Positions 5,260-21,422 of a DNA stretch of 48,588 nt are shown one piece after another. The notes beneath the pieces were generated by a model. It saw only the letters and a list, made by a program, of their open reading frames with translations, did no database searches and was not told where the DNA came from. The translations under genes were made by a program, and so were the position numbers. This DNA comes from a virus. Position 1 is the stretch's first letter. Each line of letters begins with the position of its first letter. The stretch spans positions 1-48,588 of the IMG/VR virus record IMGVR_UViG_3300044980_000033; one strand, written 5' to 3'.

Positions 5260-5931
5260 CTATCCGTTTGTCGGAATCATCGTTACCGGGCCGACGCCTG
5301 AGAACTCGCTGGCCTGTGGCGTGTAGTAATAGCCGACTTTGCCATCACCCGCTCCGCCGATCTGAGATTCTGCCTTGCTCATGTAGCTGGATTTTCCGCC
5401 CAGAACCTTCGCCATCTCCATCCATTGAGCGTACTTGCGGAAGAGTTTGGCCTTGTGAATCTTCATCAGGATCAGATCGCCCTCGCGAATACAGCCATCG
5501 TCATCGTTGATGTTCTTGGCGACCAACTCGCAATCCTCGACCTTGGCCGGGATGAATCCGAGCGCGCGGGCTTCATTGACTCTCTGGCCATCGCGGGCCT
5601 TGCAGTTGAACCAGTGACCGGCCCACTGCGGGTCTTTGAAGATGACGGTGAGATTTTGAGGCAGGCGGCCCGAGGAAAGATCGGCGAGATTGACCGGCAG
5701 GTTGTAGAAATCCTGCTCCGTCATCTTCTCGATTGGCTTGGGCAAAATGACTACTTCGCCGTCGAGCGTGTACTTGTAGAGCATCCGCCCGTCGCCGCCT
5801 AAAAATGCTCCGTCCTGCGGCTTTTCGCTGGCGCCGGGAGCGTGCGAGGGAATGCCTTGAGGGGCTGAGACGGTGCTGGCATTGACCTGGGCGAGTAATT
5901 CTTTGGGGTCGATGGTGTCTTTAGGCGACAT
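5260..5931 (-). CDS. Late protein of unknown function, 223 aa (head assembly region)
   Basis: The N-terminal 50 residues are Pro/Ser-rich and look unstructured. A folded middle (MLYKYTLDGEVVILPKPIEKMT; LTVIFKDPQWAGHWFNCKARDG) and helical stretch (KLFRKYAQWMEMAKVLGG) follow. The gene overlaps the upstream 237-aa gene by 11 nt and ends 10 nt before the next gene. A role in capsid assembly is likely from position only. Confidence 0.6.
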   Translation of the reverse strand: MSPKDTIDPKELLAQVNASTVSAPQGIPSHAPGASEKPQDGAFLGGDGRMLYKYTLDGEVVILPKPIEKMTEQDFYNLPVNLADLSSGRLPQNLTVIFKDPQWAGHWFNCKARDGQRVNEARALGFIPAKVEDCELVAKNINDDDGCIREGDLILMKIHKAKLFRKYAQWMEMAKVLGGKSSYMSKAESQIGGAGDGKVGYYYTPQASEFSGVGPVTMIPTNG

Positions 5932-6634
5932 TCTTCACCGCCGCCTTGTAACGCTCGATATCGATTGGCTCTCCATCGACGGCCATCAGCTTGTTGATTG
6001 CCGCGGCCTTGTCGAGTGGAATGCCGCGCTCCTTCAACCGCGCCGCGACTTCCGGATCGAATCCCTTGTTCGGGTCCGTCACATCCCCGCTCGCATTCGG
6101 CGCGAAGCTCGATCCACCCATGAGAGAGGGATAAGAACCGCCTTCAAGCTCGCCCTTCATGTATTTGTCGCCGACGAAGGTGCGGATCATCCACGGCCAG
6201 AATCCGGCAGTGCCTCTCTGTTCGGCGGGGAACTTTGAAGCAGACTCAAGCAACTGAGCACCGAATTTCTGGAAGACGCCGGGATTTTCCTGCCGCGCGC
6301 GAATCTCCATCAAACCAGCTTGAGCTTCAAGAGCCGTCTTCTGCGTTCCGGCCGTGGCGCGGGCAACAAATCCTGCCGGGTCGGTCAAAACCTGTGTCGT
6401 GGGGTCATTCTGGTCGGCGAGAACGGCGGGGTCGGGTACGGGGTCAGGGCCTTTGGTTAATTTGGCCAGCGCGCCTTGAATCTCGGCGAGGGAGCCTTTC
6501 AACCCATCGACGGCATCAGTCGCCGCCTTGAGGTCTTCCTTGGTGGCGGCGGAGTCGAGCTTCGACTTCAAATCTTCCGGCTTCATGCCGAGTATCTCTT
6601 CGGCTGAAACACCCTTATTGTTGCCCCACGCCAT
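5921..6634 (-). CDS. Scaffold-like head assembly protein, 237 aa
   Basis: A mostly helical, charged protein. The N-terminal 60 residues form a probable coiled coil (EEILGMKPEDLKSKLDSAAT, then AVDGLKGSLAEIQGALAKLT), followed by a Pro/Asp-rich hinge and further helices. It lacks Cys. Size, helix content and location between portal and capsid are typical of a scaffolding protein, though sequence alone does not prove it. GGGGG precedes the ATG. Confidence 0.55.
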   Translation of the reverse strand: MAWGNNKGVSAEEILGMKPEDLKSKLDSAATKEDLKAATDAVDGLKGSLAEIQGALAKLTKGPDPVPDPAVLADQNDPTTQVLTDPAGFVARATAGTQKTALEAQAGLMEIRARQENPGVFQKFGAQLLESASKFPAEQRGTAGFWPWMIRTFVGDKYMKGELEGGSYPSLMGGSSFAPNASGDVTDPNKGFDPEVAARLKERGIPLDKAAAINKLMAVDGEPIDIERYKAAVKNVA

Positions 6635-19007: not shown

Positions 19008-19158
19008 AGATCATCTGCGGACAGTCTACGACTCCATGCTGCCGGGGAATCCGTTCACCATGGACACGCTCGATGATGACGAGTGCGAGCACGGTGTGAA
19101 GTATTCCCGAACCTGCGAGGAATGCGAAAAGTTGATCGAGGAGGACGAGAATGGCTGA
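18991..19158 (+). CDS. Small acidic Cys protein, 55 aa
   Basis: Very acidic (MDTLDDDECEHGVKYSRTCE, then EC). The C-x-H...C-x2-C arrangement (ECEH, TCEEC) suggests metal binding. Sits between and overlaps two genes (8 nt with the exonuclease). Weak SD. Confidence 0.5.
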   Translation: MAIPNEDHLRTVYDSMLPGNPFTMDTLDDDECEHGVKYSRTCEECEKLIEEDENG

Positions 19159-19996
19159 GCGATTCATCGGATTCAAAGAGCACATGCCGTTTGAGGAGTA
19201 CGACGCGGTTGACGCGCTCAATGGATCGTCGCTGATTCACATCCGCCGCTCACCGATGGCGTACCGCTACCAGATGGACAATCCGCAGGTGCCTACTGAC
19301 GCGATGAAGCTCGGAACCACGATCCATACCGCGATCCTAGAGCCGCCGCTGCTCGGAAAGATTGCTGTGTGGGGAACCAAGCCCGACGAAAAGGTGCGGC
19401 GCGGTTCGGTTTGGGAAGCGTTTCAGAAGGCGAACGAGGGATTGATCCTGCTGACGCGGGCGGAACAAGCCGAGGTCGCGGATTCAGTCGAAGGCGTCTA
19501 CGACTGCGCGACCGCGCGGCAGTATCTCGTTGAAGAGGGCAAGAACGAAATCAGCATGTTTTGGGTCGATGAGTCGGGCCGGTACTGGAAGGGACGGCTG
19601 GACAAGGTGATTCGCACGGCGCACACGGCGACGATTGTGGACCTCAAGAAAACGCGCTCATGCTCCAGTCGTCGGTTCGGATCGCAGGCGTATGCTCTCG
19701 GCTACCACATCAAGGCGGCAATCTACGTGAGCGGGTTCCAAACCCTGACCGGCATCAGGCCGAAATTTCGCTGGATTGCGATTGAGAGCAAACCACCCTT
19801 TGAATGCGCAGTCTATCGGGCGACTCCCGATGTGTTGTCGCTCGGAGGAGAGGAGCAATTAAACCTTGTTCGGCTTCTGGATGAGTGCGAACGGACACAA
19901 AATTGGCCTCCCGAACAAGAACAAGAGGAAGATTTGATCCTTCCAGACTACGCTCTTTCCGAGCAGGATTCTCTTGAAGAATTTTCCGTCGAATAG
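19151..19996 (+). CDS. RecE/exonuclease VIII-like PD-(D/E)XK nuclease
   Basis: 281 aa. Family blocks are LNGSSLIHIRRSPMAYRY (N-terminus), KLGTTIHTAILEP (His59), RYWKGRLDKV (Asp151), ATIVDLKKT (Asp164-x-Lys166) and GSQAYALGYHIKAAIYVSGF. It would resect double-stranded ends 5'-3' for recombination. From about 19855 the codon choice changes and the last codons (DSLEEF) are a synonymous copy of a stretch found again after the HNH gene, so its 3' end was probably replaced when that gene inserted. Confidence 0.85.
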   Translation: MAERFIGFKEHMPFEEYDAVDALNGSSLIHIRRSPMAYRYQMDNPQVPTDAMKLGTTIHTAILEPPLLGKIAVWGTKPDEKVRRGSVWEAFQKANEGLILLTRAEQAEVADSVEGVYDCATARQYLVEEGKNEISMFWVDESGRYWKGRLDKVIRTAHTATIVDLKKTRSCSSRRFGSQAYALGYHIKAAIYVSGFQTLTGIRPKFRWIAIESKPPFECAVYRATPDVLSLGGEEQLNLVRLLDECERTQNWPPEQEQEEDLILPDYALSEQDSLEEFSVE

Positions 19997-20026
19997 TTCA
20001 AATGGAATTTGTACTTGTGGTATACT
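19997..20026 (+). promoter_or_regulatory. Putative extended -10 promoter for the HNH gene
   Basis: TTCAAA (19997-20002, 4 of 6 to TTGACA), 18-nt spacer, TGG then TATACT (20021-20026, 5 of 6). ATG 20033 lies 6 nt after the -10 and has no SD, so the transcript should be leaderless. Confidence 0.5.
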
Positions 20027-20032
20027 TGCGCC

Positions 20033-20470
20033 ATGAAAACAAAGAAATGCTCTGACTGTGGGACAAAGAAGCCTACCACACAGTTCTACAAGAACCGCCG
20101 CATGGCTGATGGGTTGTTCGCTAAGTGCAAGAAGTGTGTACTCAAAGAATGTGCAGAGTACAGGCGAACTAATCTTGAAAAGGTGCGGGCCGCGGATCGG
20201 CTTCGAGGAACCGGAAATTCTAGGAGAATCAAGAGGAATGGATACGTAAAGACCTGGAGAGAGAAAAACCCTCGCAAGTATGCTGCCCAGGTTTTGCTCA
20301 ATAACGCGATTCGTGCTGGCAAGGTGACGCGGCAACCGTGCAGGGTGTGCGGAGAGAAAGCTCAAGCGCACCATGAGAATTACGACAAACCGTTAGAGGT
20401 TGTGTGGTTCTGTGCCGTGCATCACGTTCAGCGCCACAAAGAGATGAAACAGTTCGGAATCGAACCATAG
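20033..20470 (+). CDS. Free-standing HNH homing-type endonuclease, 145 aa
   Basis: The N-terminus has KKCSDCGTKKPTTQFYKNRR then FAKCKKC, a zinc finger of phage HNH proteins. The C-terminus has PCRVCGEKAQAHHENYD, KPLEVVWFC and VHHVQRHKE: a zinc-bound HNH core with the AHH motif. It lies between the exonuclease and the remnant of the exonuclease 3' end, on its own promoter, with lower-GC codon use than its neighbours. This is typical of a free-standing homing gene. Confidence 0.8.
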   Translation: MKTKKCSDCGTKKPTTQFYKNRRMADGLFAKCKKCVLKECAEYRRTNLEKVRAADRLRGTGNSRRIKRNGYVKTWREKNPRKYAAQVLLNNAIRAGKVTRQPCRVCGEKAQAHHENYDKPLEVVWFCAVHHVQRHKEMKQFGIEP

Positions 20471-20520
20471 CGGCAGAGGCGGACTCGCTCGAAGAGTTCG
20501 CGGAAGTGGAGGAATCATGA
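20471..20520 (+). pseudogene. Remnant of the original exonuclease 3' end
   Basis: After the HNH stop, a frame reads AAEADSLEEFAEVEES and then TGA, and this TGA overlaps the ATG of the next gene (ATGA), the coupling seen throughout this operon. The present exonuclease ends SEQDSLEEFSVE. DSLEEF is identical in both while five of six codons differ synonymously. I read this as the old 3' end, displaced by the HNH insertion. Confidence 0.6.
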
Positions 20521-20774
20521 GCAGCGGACCGTATTCGGCCCCTTGGACAGACACGGGAAGGCTTCAGGGGGATATCGACAGATTAAGCAACGATCTACAC
20601 CGAAAGGCAGAGTCACATGAAGTTTCTTCGCTCAATAGCAAAGTGGATTCTTTGGAACGTACCTGTGGGGAACTTCGCTCCGACCTTGATGAAGTTCGCC
20701 GTCAACTCGACCAGTTGCGTGAAAATTTCCGGCAAGCCCTAGACGTGTTGGGGCAGATGACCACGGTTCTTTAG
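20517..20774 (+). CDS. Coiled-coil protein, 85 aa
   Basis: After a short N-terminus the whole protein is a heptad-rich coiled coil (RLQGDIDRLSNDLHRKAESH; SKVDSLERTCGELRSDLDEV; QLDQLRENFRQALDVLGQM). GGAGG precedes the ATG. Possibly an oligomerising accessory protein of the recombination module. Function unknown. Confidence 0.6.
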   Translation: MSSGPYSAPWTDTGRLQGDIDRLSNDLHRKAESHEVSSLNSKVDSLERTCGELRSDLDEVRRQLDQLRENFRQALDVLGQMTTVL

Positions 20775-20783
20775 GAGAACGAT

Positions 20784-21422
20784 ATGGCAACCGAAGCAGT
20801 GAAGCGCCCGTTACCGGGCAGCTACAGCGAGATGTACCCGAGCCGGTTTCTCAAAGCGGACATGCTCAAGGGCAAGCGGGTGACCATGACCATCAAGGCC
20901 ATCTTCGGTGAGGACTTGGTGAGCGCCGAGGATGAGGCCACGAAACCGGAATGGATCGTGCAGTTTGCCGAGCGGCCATTTGAGTGGGTGATGAACAAGT
21001 CGAATGCGTTCTGTCTCTACCGCATGTTCGGCGGCGACCCGCATTCGTGGGTAGGCCACAAGATCACGATCTTCCCGCAGCCTGGTACATGGTTCGGCGA
21101 GAAGGGCGAGGCCATCCGGGTGTGGGGATCGCCTGAGCTCACCGAGGACATGCCGATCACGCTCAAGTTTCTGCGCCGCAAGAAGGACCGGAATATGGTC
21201 ATGCACCGCGTTGTGGCGAGCAACGGGATCGCGCCGCCGACGGAACCGAAACCAGATTTCACTACCACTGTTCGCCAGCCAGAATTCGACGTGCCCGAAC
21301 GCATCGCGCAATTGTTCACGCTGCTGACCTGGGGACGCGACGTGCAGGCGTCATGGCTCGTGGCGAACGCGAACTTGAGCGATGCCGACAAGCTGGCGAA
21401 GTTGAGCAAGGAACTGGAGTAA
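20784..21422 (+). CDS. Conserved phage protein of the recombination module, 212 aa
   Basis: Contains YPSRFLKADMLKGKRVTMTI, then VMNKSNAFCLYRMFGGDPHSW and VGHKITIFPQPGTWFGEKGE, with the layout of a widespread phage family (SRFLKA...L.GK.V...; NKTNA...L.G; W.GKRI.LYP) that often sits next to RecE/RecT-type genes. The beta-rich first 130 residues could be an OB fold and bind single-stranded DNA, but that is inference. The C-terminal 60 residues look helical and may be separate. Confidence 0.6.
   Translation: MATEAVKRPLPGSYSEMYPSRFLKADMLKGKRVTMTIKAIFGEDLVSAEDEATKPEWIVQFAERPFEWVMNKSNAFCLYRMFGGDPHSWVGHKITIFPQPGTWFGEKGEAIRVWGSPELTEDMPITLKFLRRKKDRNMVMHRVVASNGIAPPTEPKPDFTTTVRQPEFDVPERIAQLFTLLTWGRDVQASWLVANANLSDADKLAKLSKELE

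Follow-up and report, generated by a model that had tools for sequence, protein, structure and literature searches.

The window, the whole stretch of 48,588 nucleotides of viral DNA that was analysed, contains an exonuclease VIII/DUF3799 gene (19151-19996) whose product has the C-terminus ...QDSLEEFSVE, and 36 bases separate the exonuclease stop from the start of a gene for an HNH homing-type endonuclease (Table 1). On the 3' side of the HNH gene, a 47-nt stretch encodes AAEADSLEEFAEVEES in a frame that opens at 20470, the HNH stop codon. This stretch closes with a TGA (20517-20519) that shares an ATGA overlap with the start of an 85-aa ORF (ATG at 20517), and it contains a GGAGG five bases 5' of that ATG. 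A preceding sequence-only reading of this DNA had described the same exonuclease end, HNH position, downstream frame and TGA/ATG overlap, all of which held when coordinates and translations were rechecked. The 85-aa ORF has a GC content of 0.52, below its neighbours.

Table 1. Parts of the exonuclease and HNH region, with their proposed origin (positions in the window)
Feature	Coordinates	Strand	Evidence and remarks
Exonuclease VIII/DUF3799 gene, native body	19151..19762	+	phrog_412 E=4e-58; DUF3799; GC3 0.76
Exonuclease, incoming recoded 3' end, ends DSLEEFSVE-TAG	19763..19996	+	GC3 0.45; codon-identity and GC3 changepoints; left edge uncertain (19763-19889)
HNH leader, promoter-like TTCAAA-18-TATACT	19997..20032	+	GC 0.39; box weak (1 site, 0.6 expected by chance)
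HNH homing-type endonuclease, 145 aa	20033..20470	+	phrog_2340 E=5e-31, residues 1-139
Stranded native exonuclease 3' end, AAEADSLEEFAEVEES-TGA	20470..20519	+	blastn of 20470-20512: 84.8% to L001 exonuclease 3' end, E=3e-7
Coiled-coil-like 85-aa ORF, ATG overlaps native exonuclease stop	20517..20774	+	without counterpart in L001
Next gene, 212 aa	20784..21422	+	66% identical to L001 protein; directly behind exonuclease in L001

The HNH protein matches the phrog_2340 profile over nearly its full length, and its gene looks intact because the zinc-binding cysteines and the histidines of the HNH region are conserved with eight phage relatives, the zinc-knuckle Cys and HNH-region His being invariant columns in the alignment. 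Sequence searches found no solved structure for the phrog_2340 HNH family.

Which of the two DSLEEF-encoding ends is native to this genome? The assignment of native and incoming ends depends on one HNH-less comparator, L001, the one relative in which the IMG/VR searches found this exonuclease. In IMG/VR, two-sequence profiles of the exonuclease and of the next gene matched L001's contig alone; the exonuclease profile had no hit in genomes, and the closest annotated phage exonucleases are ~31% identical, with tails too far diverged to align. The L001 exonuclease is 80% identical to that of the window, and its stop codon, TAG, touches the ATG of the gene corresponding to the 212-aa gene at 20784. 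With no HNH gene between these homologous neighbours, and also without the 85-aa ORF, the otherwise syntenic L001 provides the empty state of a present/absent polymorphism. L001 also has, at 5304-6179, a frame in which Cys-Ser-(Asp/Arg/Gly) is repeated over ~120 residues (CSDCSRCSGC...).

The C-terminal end of the L001 exonuclease reads ...EYAASDADALEEFAEVEG, a AEADSLEEFAEVEES-like sequence of the kind that the sequence-only reading had predicted for relatives lacking the HNH gene, and the joined native site, as in L001, is ..CTGCCTGAGTATGCGGCAAGTGATGCG... The L001 tail agrees with the stranded copy at 39/45 nt; with the active tail of the window exonuclease it agrees at 25 of the 34 nt that align, and this alignment has more gaps. 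When the L001 tail was compared with all six reading frames of the window, the stranded copy scored 56 and the active tail 45, over a background of at most 32, and four of the six DSLEEF codons in the stranded copy are identical to those of L001, compared with one of six in the active tail. The two copies within the window likewise have one DSLEEF codon in common, bearing out the earlier count of five differing codons. With L001 left aside, the downstream frame is only marginally similar to the exonuclease tail, 2% of shuffled tails scoring equally well; once L001 is included, the blastn match (Table 1) makes the relation secure. Because L001 agrees more closely with the stranded copy than with the active tail, it is the stranded copy that represents the native 3' end; the active tail is the incomer, and most likely arrived with the HNH gene.

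Two changepoints, both beyond shuffles, delimit the incoming tract. GC3 along the exonuclease drops from 0.76 to 0.45 at ~19763, and the use of the same codon at residues identical to L001 falls from 0.55 to 0.11 at ~19889; the left edge is accordingly placed between these positions, and the altered tract reaches ~105-230 bp upstream of the insertion. The recognition sites of homing endonucleases are usually shorter than this. In the native body, a fraction of 0.55-0.57 of the residues identical to L001 use the same codon, and the L001 exonuclease itself has no significant GC3 changepoint. GC content is 0.49 in the tail, 0.39 in the leader and 0.50 in the HNH gene; in the recipient part it is 0.59 in the exonuclease body, 0.64 in the remnant and 0.60 in the next gene. 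The tail and the HNH gene most likely travelled as one unit, to judge from these comparisons.

The locus combines a chimeric exonuclease tail, a native remnant, breakpoints in composition and codon use, and an intact HNH gene. Was the tail recoded under selection, or did it simply diverge elsewhere? The sequence-only reading had proposed that the HNH element carried a recoded version of its target, keeping the nuclease intact while making its own target uncuttable. A tail carried by the element, divergent in DNA and equivalent in protein, with the exonuclease intact, agrees with our results; recoding for the sake of uncuttability fits poorly with ~105-230 bp of foreign composition and with saturation over the whole tract. 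Across that tract 15/57 codons match L001, where 16-19 would be expected under saturation from an AT-richer donor (GC3 0.30-0.45), so that there is no excess of differences and ordinary saturated divergence from such a donor appears to account for them. In favour of selection for a carrier that its own enzyme cannot cut, with the exonuclease protein preserved, are the 19 consecutive codons at 19889-19945, which hold 16 synonymous and no amino-acid differences from L001, and the last ~35 codons, in which 3/28 match L001 against 9-10 expected (P 0.007-0.018, corrected for segment choice). This excess beside the insertion is suggestive at most. A modest effect of selection against identity is conceivable, but bias in codon use other than that captured by GC3 might also give rise to it. 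Against selected recoding, a recognition site would not need so long a tract, whose composition is foreign throughout, and the upstream gene is not recoded in L007 (phage morffagbaw), the sole family case with close empty relatives (L017, L018). The remnant, moreover, keeps the native DSLEEF codons, which means that a target confined to this part of the sequence would still be there; the insertion would have abolished only a site that straddles the point of entry (..TAT|GCGGCA..). We therefore consider recoding under selection unlikely, and it is similarly doubtful that the locus represents a homing element with its own recoded, functional and uncuttable target end, in which the native end has been reused as the ribosome-binding site of the next gene. 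For so long a tract of foreign-like DNA, copying from a donor in the course of homing is the best explanation, in preference to a few immunity mutations.

The same DNA outcome would be expected if illegitimate recombination between phages had joined a donor piece, consisting of the exonuclease tail and the HNH gene, without any cutting by the HNH enzyme; the location in a region of recombination genes and a junction with only short shared sequence are compatible with such a passive move. It is made improbable by the intact HNH gene with its conserved residues and by a right edge that coincides with the HNH stop codon; the same is seen in L007, where the junction is ..GCATAA|ACAAAGGGG.. compared with ..TTTCTGATCAACAAAGGGG.. 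in the empty relatives. DSLEEF-coding stretches on both sides of the HNH gene could also bring to mind a tail that diverged in place after the insertion, or a target-site duplication made by it. We reject target-site duplication, since the two copies have a single DSLEEF codon in common and the change, marked by a break in composition, extends 105-230 bp upstream; this whole class of explanation is very improbable. Nor is an assembly error likely, even in a single assembled record, because the junctions lack exact repeats.

Homing of the HNH gene from a divergent donor, with a non-allelic right junction, is probably the best explanation; among the points in its favour is that the right edge sits at the HNH stop codon, as it does in L007 relative to L017 and L018. 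The donor would have been a divergent phage that already had the HNH gene immediately after its own, homologous exonuclease gene; searches with the conserved tail motif (IMG/VR and genomes) and with DSLEEFSVE-stop (IMG/VR) found no donor candidate beyond L001. Cleavage by the HNH enzyme would have fallen close to the 3' end of the recipient exonuclease gene. On the left side, repair may have entered the donor exonuclease by homology ~105-230 bp upstream, and would then have copied the donor's exonuclease tail, the leader and the HNH gene; on the right side, rejoining would have taken place at the HNH stop codon, non-allelically and probably by microhomology (..CCATA|GCGGCAGAGG.. in the window, ..TAT|GCGGCA.. 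in L001). The exonuclease C-terminus would have stayed working, spelled in donor codons, and the native 3' end would have been left behind without a gene start of its own. The stranded copy appears still to supply the ribosome-binding site and the start overlap for the 85-aa gene, and this may plausibly be why it was retained. One by-product would be that the active gene ceases to match the original insertion-site sequence, and immunity to cutting may follow.

How typical of its family is this insertion? The phrog_2340 relatives compared (L007-L011, L013-L016, L022-L101) are the best matches among those listed, and many are interrelated, so that the counts are not independent events. In 81 of the 86 relatives with an upstream frame, compared with 1/445 for other reading frames at the same loci, the gene directly upstream ends in, or within 20 residues of, a tip like that of SSB, acidic with (I/V/L/T/S)PF and often PFN-stop. 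It ends exactly at the tip in 72/86. Among the genes in this upstream position are SSBs, a primase/helicase and one for a small cysteine-rich protein, and the family may home on DNA encoding the conserved PF tip across unrelated genes. No gene with an SSB-like PF tip was found in the window, where the upstream exonuclease ends in EEFSVE; this HNH copy is an exception to a placement that is a habit of its relatives, not a defining feature. At nine loci (L007, L011, L014, L016, L027, L048, L067, L082 and L097) the upstream gene is extended past PF, for example at 2020-2511 in L007, 451-2505 in L011, 1721-2497 in L014 and 1264-2505 in L016, with endings such as ..DDDIPFAPIGLQYARHAIHAI in L016 and FAPIGLQYARHAIHAI, and several of these genes overlap the HNH start. 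The empty relatives of L007 end in ..DDDIPF-stop. Partner proteins usually require a free C-terminus on SSB, and extension past PF could hide it.

Very different phages (L008, L032, L050, L052, L063, L072 and others) have a common HNH leader, AACGGGTCTATAATGG or TTAAAATGGG..., with a TATAAT-like box. At some of these loci the PF-stop codons form a palindrome, e.g. CCATTTTAATTAAAATGG, which contains TTAATTAA.

Among the 88 loci with an upstream frame, the window included, no convincing stranded tail was found behind the HNH gene besides that of the window, and for this reason the gene-end replacement looks like a one-off outcome rather than a family habit. Nominal stranded-tail scores at L038, L060 and L080 proved on inspection to be chance matches of one conserved downstream frame.

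Several known systems resemble parts of this arrangement. Other phrog_2340 HNH genes (L007, L009, L014, L016 and others) encode homologous proteins (40-47% identity) and likewise lie at the 3' end of a replication or recombination gene, with the right edge at the HNH stop where this can be tested (L007); unlike the window, they stand behind a ..PF tip and have no convincing stranded tail. Free-standing endonucleases of T-even phages, such as SegG beside gene 32, are accompanied by co-conversion of flanking DNA (PMC2988022). As in the window, a free-standing endonuclease gene adjoins a replication gene and a donor-derived flank is expected; SegG differs in belonging to the GIY-YIG family, T-even repair uses homology on both sides, and the part of the source drawn on here makes no mention of a stranded native gene end (PMC2988022). 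Searches of the open-licence literature turned up no phage homing gene described as having a stranded gene end behind it, which is weak evidence of absence.

The closest precedent appears to be the mobile ORFs (mORFs) of fungal mitochondria, which have the same anatomy as the window. Such mORFs with carboxy-terminal duplications occur in atp6 of Allomyces macrogynus and in atp6, atp9, cox2 and nad3 of Glomus sp., where endonuclease ORFs bring a foreign C-terminus and the native one is left behind (PMC3630166). In Glomus, DNA identity to a close relative is 91-98% for the native ends and 64-81% for the inserted ends, and a protein identity of 94-100% is reported (PMC3630166). In the window, too, a foreign-looking C-terminus is in frame with the exonuclease and the native C-terminus lies downstream, closer to L001; as in the fungal cases, the foreign C-terminus would have replaced that of the host gene, the end left behind resembles a close relative, and the protein is conserved where the DNA is divergent. 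The fungal mORFs differ in encoding LAGLIDADG or GIY-YIG enzymes, whereas the window is that of a phage, with an HNH protein in a separate frame that has its own stop. The HNH gene would have entered coding sequence with the help of neither an intron nor an intein, and the interrupted gene seems not to have been lost. Stranded native ends behind homing endonucleases are the object of a simple search that could show how frequent chimeric phage proteins are, and homing between distant phages becomes directly testable. The replacement of gene ends for which mobile ORFs of fungal mitochondria are known appears to have a phage counterpart in the window.
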